In this document: piece after piece, positions 20,949 through 27,288 of the stretch
Numbering within the stretch: the stretch's first letter is position 1
Layout of the letters: the number at the start of each line of letters is the position of its first letter
NCBI GenBank assembly: GCA_026418055.1
Contig: JAOACB010000011.1
Location: forward strand, 1-61,005
Source: Fimbriimonadales bacterium
GTDB lineage: Bacteria > Armatimonadota > Fimbriimonadia > Fimbriimonadales > Fimbriimonadaceae
Reading direction: 5' to 3'
DNA length: 61,005 nucleotides
Notes under the pieces: generated by a model
Database searches by the model: none
What the model saw: the letters and a program-made list of their open reading frames with translations, nothing else
Told to the model about the DNA's origin: nothing
Program-made: the position numbers and the translations under genes

Positions 20949-21238
20949 GCACGTTCGCGGTCGTGCTGGAGGAGTTCGCCTCGTGCATGGTGGGCGAGGA
21001 GAGGGAGGTCGACCCGCTCCACGACAGCTACGAGTCCGCCCTGCGACGGTGCAGAGAACTGGTCGACGAGAGCCTGATGCGCCTTGCCCCCACCGCCGCC
21101 AGCGCGGAGGATCTTTTCGAGCGCTTTCTGGCGGCGGGGCCCGAGCCGTTCATCGATCCTCCGGGCGAGGAGCCGTTCGTCGCTCGGCGCTACGCGTGGG
21201 AGCGGTGTCGGCGGATGCTCGGCCCAACCAAGCGATGA
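20945..21238 (+). CDS. Small protein of unknown function
   Basis: 97 residues starting with GTG inside the VanW stop (GTGA overlap), which is the main argument that it is real. It is acidic and helical ('LHDSYESALRRCRELVDES'), without signal peptide or known motif. Its last 89 bases overlap the 3' end of lnt on the opposite strand, which is unusual and lowers confidence, although the overlap falls in poorly conserved tails. Confidence 0.5.
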   Translation: MSTFAVVLEEFASCMVGEEREVDPLHDSYESALRRCRELVDESLMRLAPTAASAEDLFERFLAAGPEPFIDPPGEEPFVARRYAWERCRRMLGPTKR

Positions 21239-22658
21239 GCGGCAGCGCCCCAAGGAACAGCCAGGGGAGGACCGCTCGAAGCGGGTTGGGTTCCGCACGC
21301 CGGGGCAGCTGGAGCTCTGCGCGCAACGCGGAGCGTTGGCCGAAAGGGGCCCGGGCGAGGATTCTGCCGCGGGGGTCGACGGCCATGCTCCAACCGAGCG
21401 TGGCGGCCCGGACCGTGGGCAAGCCGGATTCCACGGCTCGCCAGACGGCGTTCGCAGCCAGCTGGTCGGGGGCGGGCGTGCCGACGTACCAGTCGTCGAT
21501 CGCCAAAATCGCCAGCAGCTGGGCTCCCGCCCTTGCGTGGCGATCCGCCAGATCCCAGAACAGGCCTTCGAAGCACAACAGCGGGCCGACCCTCGTGCCG
21601 GCGATCTCCACTTGGCTCAGCCTCTCGCCAGCCGTGAGGTCTCCGGCGGGCAGACGGAAGCGATCCAAGAAGGGCAGCCAGTCCCTTCCGGGGACGAACT
21701 CGCCGAAGACCACCAGCCGCGTCTTGTCCGCGATCGACCACCGCCCGTCGTAGGCGAAAGCCGATTGGTAGACGGGGCCCGTGCCGCGTTGCGCGCCGAA
21801 CAGCACGGGCGGAAGGCCTGGCTTGGCGAACTCCACGTCCGGTTCGCCGAGCGTGGGAACCCGCACCAATCCCTCTGGCAGCACCGTGAACGCCGACCGT
21901 TGCAGCGCGGCGCTCGCAAGAATCTCCAAGATCGCTTCGCGCACCTTCGCCTCCGTCGACCCGTCGGTGAACGCCAGATCCACGCCCGGTTGGCCGATGG
22001 TCACCGAGACGGTTCGGCCCTGCACCGGCGCACCGAAGCGCACCCAAGACACCAGCAACAGAAACACCCACACGAGCACGGGGGATCGCAGTCGGCTCGG
22101 CTCGGCCTTGGAAAGGACCTCCGCGAAGACCACGTTCGCCAGAAGCACCCAGGCGCCCACCAGCACGATCGTTCCGAAGTGGGCGTGTTGGATCAAGGCG
22201 GGATACGGCCATAGAGGGAACCCTGCCAAGCCCCACGGGAATGCCAGCACCGGCATGTAGCTCCGCAGGACCTCCACCCCGGCCCAGGCGGCGGGGACCG
22301 CCAGCAGGCCGATCCTGTAGGCGCGAGCCATCAGCCAGCCGGCGAGGCCGAAGTAGAGCTGACCGACCAGCGCCGCGAGCAGCCACGGCAGCAACGCCAG
22401 CGCTAGGCTGCCGGTCCAGCTCCTCACCAGCACCGGCAACCAAACCATCTGACCCAGCAGGAACACGAAGCCGAACGCGAGCCCGGAGCGGAAAGCCGTG
22501 CGCCCGTCGGCCTCCCGCAGCTGCAACAGCCACGGAACCCAGGCGACGAACGCGACCAGTCCGAGATGCATCGGCGGGAAGCAACAGAGCGCCAGCAGCG
22601 CGCTGAAGATCGCGGGGCCGCAGCCCGTTCGGAATCTAGCTATGGACGCCTTCCACAT
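21150..22658 (-). CDS. lnt: Apolipoprotein N-acyltransferase
   Basis: 502 residues. About seven membrane segments fill the N-terminal 200 residues, followed by a carbon-nitrogen hydrolase domain with the catalytic triad Glu262 (LPEGLV), Lys312 (ADKTRLVVFGEF) and Cys362 (LLCFEGLF). It adds the third acyl chain to lipoproteins, a step typical of diderm bacteria, so it supports a two-membrane envelope. The last membrane segment and a charged tail follow. The start overlaps the histidine phosphatase gene by 23 bp. The 3' tail overlaps the small plus-strand gene. Confidence 0.95.
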   Translation of the reverse strand: MWKASIARFRTGCGPAIFSALLALCCFPPMHLGLVAFVAWVPWLLQLREADGRTAFRSGLAFGFVFLLGQMVWLPVLVRSWTGSLALALLPWLLAALVGQLYFGLAGWLMARAYRIGLLAVPAAWAGVEVLRSYMPVLAFPWGLAGFPLWPYPALIQHAHFGTIVLVGAWVLLANVVFAEVLSKAEPSRLRSPVLVWVFLLLVSWVRFGAPVQGRTVSVTIGQPGVDLAFTDGSTEAKVREAILEILASAALQRSAFTVLPEGLVRVPTLGEPDVEFAKPGLPPVLFGAQRGTGPVYQSAFAYDGRWSIADKTRLVVFGEFVPGRDWLPFLDRFRLPAGDLTAGERLSQVEIAGTRVGPLLCFEGLFWDLADRHARAGAQLLAILAIDDWYVGTPAPDQLAANAVWRAVESGLPTVRAATLGWSMAVDPRGRILARAPFGQRSALRAELQLPRRAEPNPLRAVLPWLFLGALPLIAWLGRASADTAPTRSAERRTAPRPEDR

Positions 22659-23280
22659 CCCCGCTGAGCACCGGCGAATCGGGGTCCAGGTGGGAGACGT
22701 CGTTGTGGCGCACCAGCACCAGCGAGCCGTCGCTGCGGGGCACGATCTCGCTGACTCCCGTGTTGGCGAATCGAAAGGCGCGGGCCATCACCGGTTGCAA
22801 CCCGAGGAGGCGCGCCACCAGCACCGTCGCCGTGCCTCCGTGCGTCACCACCAGCGTGTCTCCGGAGGAGCGCTTCAGATCCTCGGCGACGGGACCGATG
22901 CGCTCCCACACGTCTTGGAAGGACTCTCCCCCCGGGGGTCGGGCCTCGAAGGGGGTGACGCCGGTCTGTTGGGCGATCCTCTCCAGCTCCGCCACCATCT
23001 CCTCGTGGGGTTTACCCTCGAACACCCCCATGTCCCGCTCCCTCAGGCGCGGGTCGGCTTCCACCGGAAGGCTGTGGTGCTCGGCCACAGCTTGGGCGGT
23101 CTGAAGGCTTCTCCGCAGGTCGCTGGACACGATGCGATCCAAAGGGGTGTGGCGGAAGCGGAGACCCAGGCGCCTCGCCTGCATCTTCCCGGTTTCATCC
23201 AGCGGCTCGTCCCTATGTCCGCCGGCAAGCCCCCGCACGTTCCAGTCGGTCTGGCCGTGGCGCACGATGTAGAGGCGCAT
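22636..23280 (-). CDS. Histidine phosphatase (phosphoglycerate-mutase-like)
   Basis: 214 residues. RHG motif with the phospho-accepting His8 (YIVRHGQTDWN), acid/base Glu in 'RERDMGVFEGKP', and second histidine in VVTHGGT. The family covers cobalamin phosphatase CobC, broad acid phosphatases and cofactor-dependent mutases; substrate cannot be read from sequence. ATG 23280 is preferred over the GTG two codons upstream. It overlaps lnt and follows the Clp1-like gene by 10 bp. Confidence 0.9.
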   Translation of the reverse strand: MRLYIVRHGQTDWNVRGLAGGHRDEPLDETGKMQARRLGLRFRHTPLDRIVSSDLRRSLQTAQAVAEHHSLPVEADPRLRERDMGVFEGKPHEEMVAELERIAQQTGVTPFEARPPGGESFQDVWERIGPVAEDLKRSSGDTLVVTHGGTATVLVARLLGLQPVMARAFRFANTGVSEIVPRSDGSLVLVRHNDVSHLDPDSPVLSGDVEGVHS

Positions 23281-23290
23281 GGCCACACCA

Positions 23291-24199
23291 CTATACCTGC
23301 CAAGGTCGGAGCTCCCCGAGCTCGGCTCCTTTGGCGTCCAGCCTCAAACCGCCCAGTTTGAGGATCGGCGCCGACACCGGCGGCACGGCGTCGGTCCACA
23401 CGCGGATCGTTCCCTCCTTGAAGTCGATGCCTTGGAGCACCCCGAGGGCGAAGTCGTCGCCGTTGAGCCTTGCGAGGCCGCAGAGCAGGCCGGCGAATCG
23501 CTCGGTCGGGACGGCCTCCGAGCGATCGCAACCGACGTTCTGGGCCGCCCTCCTCAGGGCTTCGTCCCCCGGAGGCTGCTCGCACACGAGGTACAGCGTG
23601 CCTTCGGTGCGCTCCGCCCAGACGGCGCGGACGCCCGCGTCGGAAAGCGCGGCTGCGTCCAGACGGCTGCCCGATCCGATCCTGGCTCCCATCAGCAGCG
23701 TGTCGTTCAGCGGCAGCTCGCAGAGGGTGGCTCGCGACAGCAGCGCGTGCCAATGGGCCCGGCGCTGCGCCTGCACAACCACCTGGGGGAACGGGTTGGG
23801 CAACTCGATGGTCTGCGGACCGGTCGACCAGCCTCTCTCTTGCAGGGCGTCCGGATCGGCGCAGACGATGCGATCGGGCCGGACGAGGCGGTCCACGACC
23901 AGCGCCAGCTCCCGCGCCAGGGGCGCGCGCCGCCACGGGAACAGCCTCACGAAGCCCTCGCCGCCGAGCAAAGGCAGCAGCTCCGCCAAGGCGCCCAGCA
24001 CAACGTGCGGACTCCGCAGAGGGTTCAGCGAGCCGTAGAAGCGCCACAACCAGCCCTCTTGCCGCTGCAGGGCGATCCGTCCGAGCAGACCGGTGTCAGG
24101 GTCTGCCGGATCCAGGCACAGCCAAGGCGCATCGGGATGCTCCTTGCGCAGCTCGCGAAAGGAGTCGCCCGGCCCACCAACCAGCAGCGTCAGGGGCAT
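23291..24199 (-). CDS. Clp1/Grc3 (NOL9)-like protein with a lost P-loop
   Basis: 302 residues. The whole length can be laid against archaeal polynucleotide 5'-kinases of the Clp1/Grc3 type: 'LDPADPDTGLLGRIAL' (like DaDvGQs-igpP), 'LWRFYGSLNPLRSPHVV' (like yFvGstSP-gh), 'DRLVRPDRIVCADPDALQ' (like iellRPDlviaLqr), the Arg-rich helix QAQRRAHWHALLSRA, and the C-terminal beta domain 'ALGVLQGIDFKEGTIRVWTD' with LKLGGLRLDAKGAELG. The N-terminus reads LLVGGPGDSFREL: the GKST/S of Walker A is missing, so kinase activity is unlikely. This is my own recognition and needs a profile search. It lies between an isochorismatase-like gene (9 bp) and a histidine phosphatase. Confidence 0.65.
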   Translation of the reverse strand: MPLTLLVGGPGDSFRELRKEHPDAPWLCLDPADPDTGLLGRIALQRQEGWLWRFYGSLNPLRSPHVVLGALAELLPLLGGEGFVRLFPWRRAPLARELALVVDRLVRPDRIVCADPDALQERGWSTGPQTIELPNPFPQVVVQAQRRAHWHALLSRATLCELPLNDTLLMGARIGSGSRLDAAALSDAGVRAVWAERTEGTLYLVCEQPPGDEALRRAAQNVGCDRSEAVPTERFAGLLCGLARLNGDDFALGVLQGIDFKEGTIRVWTDAVPPVSAPILKLGGLRLDAKGAELGELRPWQV

Positions 24200-24208
24200 G
24201 TCCGCCCT

Positions 24209-24772
24209 TCAGAGAGGAGCCCGCTTGGTGGCTTGCAGCACGTCGCGGAAGCGCTCGTGGGTCGCGTCTCCCAGCCACTCGTAGACGATCGACTCGGTGT
24301 GCGCGAGAGCGCAACCCGCGGCTCCTGCTCTCTCGAGCCCGGCCGACTTGCGCTCGGCGTCCCGCGACCCGACGGCGTCGATCGCGACGGTGACGTCGAA
24401 CTTTTGGCCAAGGAGGTCCAACGCGGTCTGCAGCACGCAGATGTGCGCCTCGACGCCCGCCAGCACCACCTGGGTCCTCCATGTGGATCGCAGGGCGTCC
24501 ATGAAACCGATCGAACGGGCGCAGCTGAACGCGCTCTTCGGGATGATCTCGGTGCCGTCCAGCTGGTCCGCGATTACGGGCGCGCTCGGACCGAGCTTGG
24601 CTGGGATCTGCTCCGTGGCCAGCACGGGAACGCCGAGAAGCTTGGCGCACCGGATCAAATACTCGGCCCTGGCCAGAACGCGCTCGGCATGGTCGATGGC
24701 CGGCATCATGTTCGTCTGCATGTCCACGACGACAAGGACGGAGTCGCCGGCGTGGTGGAGGATGGAGCCCAT
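24209..24772 (-). CDS. Isochorismatase-like cysteine hydrolase
   Basis: 187 residues with the triad Asp17 (VVVDMQTNM), Lys79 (IIPKSAFSC) and Cys112 (GVEAHICVL). 'ATEQIPAKLGPSAP' resembles the YcaC/ISOC branch rather than nicotinamidase, for which the metal ligands are not evident. Substrate unknown. First gene of a minus-strand operon with the Clp1-like, phosphatase and lnt genes. CATAAT lies 6 bases before ATG 24772 without a ribosome site, so the operon's first message may be leaderless. Confidence 0.9.
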   Translation of the reverse strand: MGSILHHAGDSVLVVVDMQTNMMPAIDHAERVLARAEYLIRCAKLLGVPVLATEQIPAKLGPSAPVIADQLDGTEIIPKSAFSCARSIGFMDALRSTWRTQVVLAGVEAHICVLQTALDLLGQKFDVTVAIDAVGSRDAERKSAGLERAGAAGCALAHTESIVYEWLGDATHERFRDVLQATKRAPL

Positions 24773-25479: not shown

Positions 25480-26286
25480 CTACGCCGTCTTCCGTCGGCG
25501 CCGCCAAGCGGCGAGACCGACAGCAGCCGCTCCGAGACCCATGGTGACCGGCTCCGGCACGGGCACCCCCGCCCCGTCGATCCTGCCTCCCGTCAATTGG
25601 AAGCTCGGCTCGGAGAGGCTGGTGCCGTACTGCGCCCAAACCTTGTTCGGAGCGAAGCTCAGCTCGCTCGAACCCGTGGAGAACACGAAGCGCACCGAGT
25701 TCGAGACGAGGGGGTTCTTGAGCACAGGCGTGTTCGCGCTCGAAGGCCAACTGGTCAGCGCCGGCAGGATGCCGTACTCCAGGCCTCCCACGTTGGCTGG
25801 GCCACTCAGGTTCTGGCTGGTGTCGAAGCGATCCGACGGCCCGAAGAGGCCCAAGCCGGAGGCCGACACGCCGAAGACGCCACTGTGCCCGGAGTGGCTC
25901 AGGCCGGAGGCGAAGGCCCACTCGCCTCCGACATTCGAGGGATGACCGGAGACGACCGCGCCGTTGTGCCAAACCTGGGAGCCCCCGAGGGACGCGGAGA
26001 CCGGTGAGAGGGCCGCTCCCGAGGGCAACGTCCAATACAGGCCCGTCAGCACGTCGGCGGGCCGCAGGTCGGTGACGTCGCTGCTCGCATTGACGAGCAC
26101 GACATCGAGGAACCAAGAGCTACCGACCTGATAGGTGGCGAACGAGGCGGTGGCGGACAGATTGTTGCCCGTATCGGGCGAGGAGAGCGCGGCGGTGTAA
26201 ACTGCGGTCCAAGCCCAAGAGGACGAGGTCGCGGCGGCAAGCGCGACAACCGGTAGCTTTCGCTGGAGGATTCGGGAAGCGTTCAT
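25480..26286 (-). CDS. PEP-CTERM (exosortase-sorted) surface protein, copy A
   Basis: 268 residues. An N-terminal signal (ILQRKLPVVALAAATSSSWA) and a C-terminal sorting signal: VPEPVTMGLG, a short hydrophobic helix and a final Arg cluster (WRRRRKTA). Exosortase would cleave near PEP and hand the protein to the cell surface. The body is a beta-rich domain shared with the next gene ('DRFDTSQNLSGP', 'NVGGEWAF'). It may belong to one of the NCBI exosortase-dependent surface families (XDD type), unverified. ATG 26286 has GGAG 7 bases upstream. No exosortase gene is in the window. Confidence 0.88.
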   Translation of the reverse strand: MNASRILQRKLPVVALAAATSSSWAWTAVYTAALSSPDTGNNLSATASFATYQVGSSWFLDVVLVNASSDVTDLRPADVLTGLYWTLPSGAALSPVSASLGGSQVWHNGAVVSGHPSNVGGEWAFASGLSHSGHSGVFGVSASGLGLFGPSDRFDTSQNLSGPANVGGLEYGILPALTSWPSSANTPVLKNPLVSNSVRFVFSTGSSELSFAPNKVWAQYGTSLSEPSFQLTGGRIDGAGVPVPEPVTMGLGAAAVGLAAWRRRRKTA

Positions 26287-26418
26287 CAATCTCCAAGATC
26301 CTCAAACCCTGGTGAAACCGGTTCGAGCGACCTTCGGGAGGTTGGACGTCTTCCTCCATGGGCAAGGTTCCTCCTTGGACGACTTTCCGCCAGTGCGGTT
26401 GCCGAATCCCGCAAGAAA

Positions 26419-26467: not shown

Positions 26468-27274
26468 TCAGCGCCGGCGTCGTCGCCAAACGGCGAGGCC
26501 GAACGCCCCCGCGGCGAGCGCGAACGAAGCAGGCTCTGGCACGATCCCCTCCGGCGGGATTTCGTCGCCGGTGAGCCGGAACCTCGGCTCGTCCAGATCC
26601 GTCCCGTACTGGGCCCAGACGCCCGTGGGCAGGACCGTGAGCTCCGTGGAGCCGGTTTCGAACGTGAACAGCACCGCGTTCGAGATGAGCTCCTCCTTGA
26701 TCATCTTTGGGTTCCAGCTGCCTGGCCAGCTCGAGATAGTCGGGATGATGCCGTACTGAAGCCCATCGGGGTTATCCGGGCCAGACAGGTTCTGGCTGGT
26801 GTCGAAGCGGTCATGCGGTCCGAACAGGCCGAAGCCGGCGCTGCCGATGCCGTGCAAACCGGTCAGGGTTCCGATGGACAGTCCGGGTTTGTAGGCCCAT
26901 TCTCCACCGACGTTGGACCCGTGGTTTGTGACGATCGAACCGTCCAGCCAAACCTTCACCCCCGTGGGCAGGACGGCCTGAACAGGGCTGAGCGTTGGGG
27001 ACACCGAGGAACCGAACTCGAAGAACAGTCCGGTGAGGGTGTCCGCCGGAACCAGGTTGGTCACGTCGGTGGAGGTGTTCGTGAGCAACACGTCCAGGTA
27101 CCACGTGGACCCGGACTGATAGGTCTGGAAGAGCGCGGACGCCGCGAGCGTGTTGCCGGAAGGCGCCGCGTAGGTTCCCGTGAACAGGCCGCTGATGGGA
27201 TGGCCGAGGGTCGCGACCACCGTGGCGCCCGCGATCACTGCGATTCGCCTACCGATGGAGCAAGCCGATGACAT
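26468..27274 (-). CDS. PEP-CTERM (exosortase-sorted) surface protein, copy B
   Basis: 268 residues, a tandem paralogue of the neighbouring gene. Both share 'GLFGP-DRFDTSQNLSGP', 'VWAQYGT-L-EP-F-LTG' and the overall length. The C-terminus has VPEPASFALAAGAFGLAVW and a terminal RRRRR cluster. An N-terminal signal precedes the mature beta-rich domain. ATG 27274 follows GGGAGGTG at ideal distance; a GTG two codons upstream overlaps that site and is unlikely. The leader holds two perfect inverted repeats, which hints at specific regulation. Confidence 0.88.
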   Translation of the reverse strand: MSSACSIGRRIAVIAGATVVATLGHPISGLFTGTYAAPSGNTLAASALFQTYQSGSTWYLDVLLTNTSTDVTNLVPADTLTGLFFEFGSSVSPTLSPVQAVLPTGVKVWLDGSIVTNHGSNVGGEWAYKPGLSIGTLTGLHGIGSAGFGLFGPHDRFDTSQNLSGPDNPDGLQYGIIPTISSWPGSWNPKMIKEELISNAVLFTFETGSTELTVLPTGVWAQYGTDLDEPRFRLTGDEIPPEGIVPEPASFALAAGAFGLAVWRRRRR

Positions 27275-27288
27275 TTTCACCTCCCTTC

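Follow-up and report, generated by a model that had tools for sequence, protein, structure and literature searches.

Genes and Features of the Locus

The window, by which is meant the whole stretch of 61,005 nucleotides that was analysed, harbored on its reverse strand a gene encoding a protein of the Clp1/Grc3 fold, hereafter called the pseudokinase for reasons developed below, which was followed by a histidine phosphatase gene and by lnt, and preceded by a gene for an isochorismatase-family hydrolase (Table 1). The pseudokinase ORF started with an ATG, downstream of a GGAG/GAAGGG-like stretch, and its frame was intact over all 302 codons.

Table 1. Genes of the locus and segments of the pseudokinase, with their positions in the window
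Feature	Position	Strand	Basis
Clp1/Grc3-fold pseudokinase gene, 302 aa	23291..24199	(-)	ORF; family homologues; fold Z 15-19.5; dN/dS 0.04-0.17
Codons 8-15 (GGPGDSFR), former Walker A site, replaced in register	24155..24178	(-)	G, D, G, K, S/T retained in 55/55 P-loop relatives; [ST]-W-R in the window's family
Codons 28-33 (CLDPAD), former DxDxGQ (Clp1-family Walker B); D30 (second Asp) retained; first Asp, Gly, and Gln lost	24101..24118	(-)	Column counts
Codons 83-96, at the site of the old hhhD[T]xG strand and clasp; Asp and Gly missing; 62/62 with newly fixed P93	23912..23953	(-)	Alignment columns
Codons 137-150, lid remnant; first lid Arg lost, R146 retained, W150 newly fixed (62/62)	23750..23791	(-)	Alignment columns
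Codons 171-177 (GARIGSG), top-conserved motif of the C-terminal half	23669..23689	(-)	R173, G175, and G177 100% conserved in 62 family members
Codons 238-302, C-terminal block LL.GL...ALG...DF...PWQV	23294..23488	(-)	G283, E293, and W300 (nearly) fixed; entropy below that of the active group
Histidine phosphatase (branch 1), ancient downstream neighbor	22636..23286	(-)	PF00300, E 2.8e-57
lnt, apolipoprotein N-acyltransferase, next gene	21150..22658	(-)	TIGR00546, 185.9 bits (cut-off 132.9)
Isochorismatase-family hydrolase, upstream; neighbor in the window's genus only	24209..24772	(-)	PF00857

The order pseudokinase, histidine phosphatase, and lnt was found in 45 of the 65 loci of the window's family, Fimbriimonadaceae, and in 6/6 loci of its sister family (f5) in the same order, the phosphatase adjoining the pseudokinase in 49/65 and 6/6 loci, respectively. 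Of 40 representatives from the other families, all of which carried a P-loop, 18 also had the phosphatase directly downstream of Clp1, often with a 1-base overlap (L165, L168, L169, L171, L172, L188, and L200 are among these loci). Since the two genes are adjacent in P-loop-bearing families as well, their pairing predates the loss of the P-loop, and this arrangement suggests an old kinase-phosphatase pair formed by Clp1 and the histidine phosphatase. Nonetheless, Fimbriimonadaceae genomes devoid of the pseudokinase mostly retained the phosphatase, several of them beside lnt; at least one genome (G096) encoded the pseudokinase but lacked a close phosphatase, and in about a dozen loci of the family the two genes lay apart. 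A strict dependence of the phosphatase on the pseudokinase was not supported by this co-loss test.

The first-pass annotation had placed the gene in an operon with lnt, a phosphatase, and an isochorismatase-like hydrolase. The first two proved to be conserved neighbors, but homologues of the hydrolase were found beside the pseudokinase only in two congeners, so that this genus-specific gene is uninformative and was ruled out as part of a conserved unit. Other features of the surroundings were also recorded. In 13 Fimbriimonadaceae loci (L079, L083, L096, L101, L108, L114, L115, L119, L121, L123, L124, L131, and L132), a gene that, judged by sequence, may encode an AAA+ ATPase-like protein (cluster c3) was found directly upstream of the pseudokinase and on the same strand. 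Two further ORFs of the window, at 25480-26289 and 26468-27280 of the reverse strand, ended in a VPEP...AWRRRR-like stretch of the kind borne by PEP-CTERM-sorted secreted proteins.

Relationship to the Clp1/Grc3 Family

The window protein alone gave no match in Pfam or NCBIfam, even at E 10, and its link to Clp1/Grc3 was therefore visible only via its relatives or its fold; a phmmer search with it against PDB chains also returned nothing relevant. Homologues were found in 46 of the 61 related genomes searched. Proteins of three other families of the same order (f2, f3, and f4) matched CLP1_P (PF16575) in 14/14 cases, with a best E value of 7.2e-37, and the hhalign comparison of the Fimbriimonadaceae profile with these CLP1_P-positive relatives reached an E value of 4.5e-35 (probability 99.9, 279 columns), while that with the sister family extended over the full length (E 3.2e-52). 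Moreover, a profile built from all 39 sequences retrieved NOL9 (1.3e-7), Grc3, and Clp1 chains in PDB. As had been claimed from the window sequence, the Clp1/Grc3 blocks could be followed from end to end in an alignment with the 55 relatives that have a P-loop, and the C-terminal GLL..GL...ALG...DF block was among them. This alignment and the hhalign E value of 4.5e-35 together indicated that the resemblance was not due to chance.

The AlphaFold model of the window protein (mean pLDDT 94.9, pTM 0.90) led to the same family. The first 21 Foldseek matches were all Clp1/Grc3/NOL9 chains, to which the model was aligned by VIA-align with Z scores of 15.4-19.5 over 214-242 residues (model range 1-292), the next fold, that of the SRP GTPases, reaching no more than 8.0; the alignment behind the model contained P-loop relatives, on which the model consequently depends, whereas the sequence-profile evidence is independent of it. 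Both the kinase fold and the C-terminal domain fold that characterize CLP1_P members were present in the model. The window protein belongs to the Clp1/Grc3 family by descent and fold, as the first-pass annotation had proposed, and by the motif tests described below it stands outside the active kinases.

Replacement of the Kinase Motifs

Motif columns were counted in an alignment of 66 Fimbriimonadaceae, 6 sister-family, and 55 other proteins, using the residue numbers of an f4 protein (L034); a second set, comprising 62 full-length Fimbriimonadaceae proteins, 6 sister-family proteins, and 54 relatives from other families, served for motif and conservation counts. An intact P-loop (GxxxxGK[ST]) was present in 54/54 relatives of other families, in 5/6 sister-family proteins, and in 0/62 Fimbriimonadaceae proteins. 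It took the form GxxDxGK[ST] in all f2, f3, and f4 relatives and GPxxxGK[ST] in the 5/6 of the sister family. In the 55 other proteins, G30, D33, G35, K36, D58, D60, G62, Q63, D129, R196, and R200 were fixed (55/55), as was S/T at position 37.

The Walker A motif had first been taken as deleted in the window protein. This reading was ruled out, as the alignment showed no gap at the motif, which had instead been substituted residue by residue and in register, from G-x4-G-K-S/T to G-x4-[ST]-W-R, with new conserved residues at the site. In the Fimbriimonadaceae, the G35 column was occupied by S or T in 53/66 proteins, that of the catalytic Lys (K36) by W in 60/66 (60/62 among full-length copies), usually followed by Arg, and that of T37 by R in 53/66. 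The window copy itself carried F14 at the Lys site, where nearly the whole family has W.

The other motifs were altered as well. The first Asp of DxD (D58) was mostly replaced by C or V and the Walker B Gln (Q63) mostly by D or E, also by N, while D60, corresponding to D30 in the window protein, was retained in 61/66. The catalytic Asp of the IDT (hhhD) motif, D129, had become Q or L, and T130 and G132 of the clasp, nearly fixed in the active group, were absent. In the lid RxxxxR, the residue at R196 was varied, whereas R200 (R146 in the window protein) was retained in 65/66. Four kinase motifs have been described for the Clp1 family, namely Walker A, Walker B ([DE]hhQ), clasp, and lid (PMC6777427), and all four were lost or broken in the Fimbriimonadaceae; the window protein presented none of Walker A, Walker B [D/E]hhQ, clasp [T/S/L]xGW, and lid RxxxxR.

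The proposal of a retained fold with lost catalysis accordingly stood in its first half, the fold having been kept in a frame under purifying selection while the P-loop and most catalytic motifs disappeared; the loss of catalysis is a prediction from these residues. With Trp at the position of the Lys and Ser or Thr at that of the Gly, the old site would no longer bind ATP, and nucleotide binding there is unlikely. Some ligand binding at this site might persist, since D30 and R146, which correspond to residues of the active site, remain conserved.

Distribution and the Sister Family as an Intermediate

Among 291 Armatimonadota genomes, 134 encoded CLP1_P proteins scoring above the Pfam cut-off (e.g., L164-L203), although bacterial Clp1 had been reported in just 0.9% of complete bacterial genomes (PMC6777427). 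In none of the 85 Fimbriimonadaceae genomes did the search for a second, intact Clp1 yield a CLP1_P protein above this cut-off. The pseudokinase gene was present in 68 of these 85 genomes and absent from 17; as 11 of the 70 high-quality genomes also lacked it, the gene is dispensable in some species. Two irregular copies were noticed. In G090 (L136), a shortened and divergent pseudokinase of 269 aa, matching in two pieces, lay beside the phosphatase and lnt as if decaying. An apparent 802-aa fusion (L085) was rejected as a false gene call, its N-terminal part looking like a wrong-frame read-through.

In the phylogenetic tree, a branch with an SH-aLRT support of 99 separated the Fimbriimonadaceae and the sister family from the remaining sequences, and the Fimbriimonadaceae formed one clade (SH-aLRT 99). 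The sister-family relatives (L026-L031) shared W150, W300, and the LDP motif with the Fimbriimonadaceae and had lost D58, Q63, D129, and R196, but kept D60, like the P-loop, in 5/6. Judged from these residues, the sister family is a living intermediate, in which the P-loop has been kept and the other motifs lost. The single sister-family genome without the P-loop (L029/L141) reads GAPGSGHR at this site and appears to have lost it separately. The simplest account of these sequences would be two separate losses of the P-loop, at the base of the Fimbriimonadaceae and in this lineage.

An additional observation concerned RtcB, for which the best matches in the Fimbriimonadaceae were weak, with E values of about 1e-71 at best, those in f2 and f3 being mostly canonical (near 1e-150 to 1e-181). 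The Fimbriimonadaceae may have altered their RNA repair more broadly.

Selection and Shift of Constraint

The intact frame reported by the first-pass annotation was confirmed, and dN/dS values of 0.04-0.17 among Fimbriimonadaceae gene pairs (dS < 1) indicated purifying selection. Across the 62 full-length proteins, 24 columns were at least 93% identical. They included the Trp at the former Lys position, P64, P93, R146, W150, R173, G175, G177, E196, G283, E293, and W300; this Trp, P93, W150, and W300 are newly fixed in the family. Mean column entropy increased from 1.61 in the other families to 1.93 in the Fimbriimonadaceae for residues 1-60, and decreased from 2.25 to 1.77 for residues 136-180 and from 2.17 to 1.74 for residues 231-302. 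These changes indicated that constraint has been relaxed in the N-terminal kinase half and tightened in the lid helix and the C-terminal half, a shift that, as far as sequences can tell, argues for altered function rather than decay. That the gene is a decaying relic heading for loss is almost certainly wrong, for its absence from 17/85 genomes and the shortened copy in G090 are outweighed by the low dN/dS, the 24 conserved columns, the open frames with no inner stops, and the retention of the gene even where the operon is broken up.

Proposed Function and Alternatives

The product of the window gene is very probably a 'dead' kinase with a new, non-kinase job. The evidence leans, with some reserve, towards an orthologue of the Clp1/Grc3 5'-OH polynucleotide kinases that was kept as a non-catalytic RNA- and/or protein-binding subunit after an ancestral Armatimonadota kinase had lost ATP binding and catalysis in the ancestor of the Fimbriimonadaceae. 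The Trp-Arg at the old phosphate loop would make the domain ATP-independent, and the protein would act through its lid helix and C-terminal domain, including R146, R173, E196, E293, and W300, as a scaffold for RNA and/or protein; such binding is suggested by analogy with other inactive kinases, discussed below. It is plausible, though we would stop short of calling it probable, that the RNA 5'-end kinase of a whole bacterial family became an ATP-independent protein with an RNA-binding or regulatory role when the conserved Trp-Arg took over the P-loop, the sister family representing the half-way stage. If true, this would constitute a bacterial counterpart of yeast Clp1 in which the order of the inactivation steps is readable in living species.

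The conserved gene order could also mean that the pseudokinase is a regulatory or targeting subunit of the adjacent histidine phosphatase, in which case an ancient kinase-phosphatase pair would survive with its kinase half turned into a scaffold. This is unlikely, since the frequent adjacency of the two genes, extending to the sister family and to the P-loop-bearing families, is set against the persistence of the phosphatase where the pseudokinase is missing, the reverse situation in G096, and the loci in which the genes are separated. The phosphatase remains the first candidate for a partner. It is improbable that the C-terminal half has acquired a new, or conceals an overlooked, catalytic activity, the old kinase half being only its structural support. 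Although R173, E196, and E293 were fully conserved in the 62 Fimbriimonadaceae members and this half was under tighter constraint than in active kinases, E196 is fixed, and R173 and E293 are partly kept, in active kinases too, so that these residues may be structural; moreover, the best fold matches were all of the Clp1 family and none was another enzyme. Finally, the protein might still bind a nucleotide by another route, for instance through R15, D30, and R146, and work as an ATP sensor like yeast Clp1, which binds ATP without kinase activity (PMC3245249). The frequent Arg at the S/T site and the near-constant D30 and R146 fit such a sensor, which we nevertheless consider quite improbable, given that almost every member carries Trp instead of the P-loop Lys, that the motif Gly has given way to Ser or Thr, and that both the Gln of Walker B and the Asp of hhhD have disappeared.

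Comparison with Known Systems

Grc3 and NOL9 are active kinases complexed with the Las1 nuclease; the window protein matches them in fold (Z 15-18) but lacks any complete catalytic motif. Among bacteria, Clp1 has been called extremely rare and was characterized solely as an active kinase, Ts-Clp1 of Thermus scotoductus (PMC6777427). The pseudokinase shares with Ts-Clp1 (CLP1_P, PF16575) and with the Armatimonadota orthologues their descent, the end-to-end fold, and the C-terminal block, and with the latter also the ancient downstream histidine phosphatase. It differs from bacterial Clp1 in that all four motifs are lost or broken, no PF16575 match is given by the single sequence, and a new W, P, and W have been fixed. 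It shares its gene order with the sister-family relatives, from which it is set apart by the P-loop that most of them keep. A literature search, most subscription papers being outside its reach, found no study joining Armatimonadetes or Fimbriimonas with Clp1, which these data reveal to be common in one bacterial phylum.

Dead Clp1-type kinases have so far been described in eukaryotes, namely yeast and trypanosomes, the inactive trypanosome Clp1 being a further precedent (PMC10598085). Yeast Clp1 is kinase-dead, retains its P-loop, binds ATP, and is needed for CF IA assembly (PMC3245249). In the window's family, the Clp1 fold has likewise been kept under selection without catalytic motifs, and a structural role may be proposed by analogy; unlike in yeast Clp1, the P-loop itself has been replaced, and the eukaryotic N-terminal domain is absent from the window protein. 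Another dead polynucleotide kinase domain, of the PNKP type, occurs in the RNA-binding protein hnRNPUL1, where Walker A and nucleotide binding are kept and activity is abolished by one Asp-to-Asn change (PMC13066744). The hnRNPUL1 domain serves RNA and protein interactions, as is proposed here for the pseudokinase, but the latter has not kept Walker A. The Fimbriimonadaceae would add to these cases a clade-wide bacterial conversion with a living intermediate, in which the steps of kinase death become open to biochemistry and which suggests that the C-terminal domain of Clp1 has a role independent of kinase activity.
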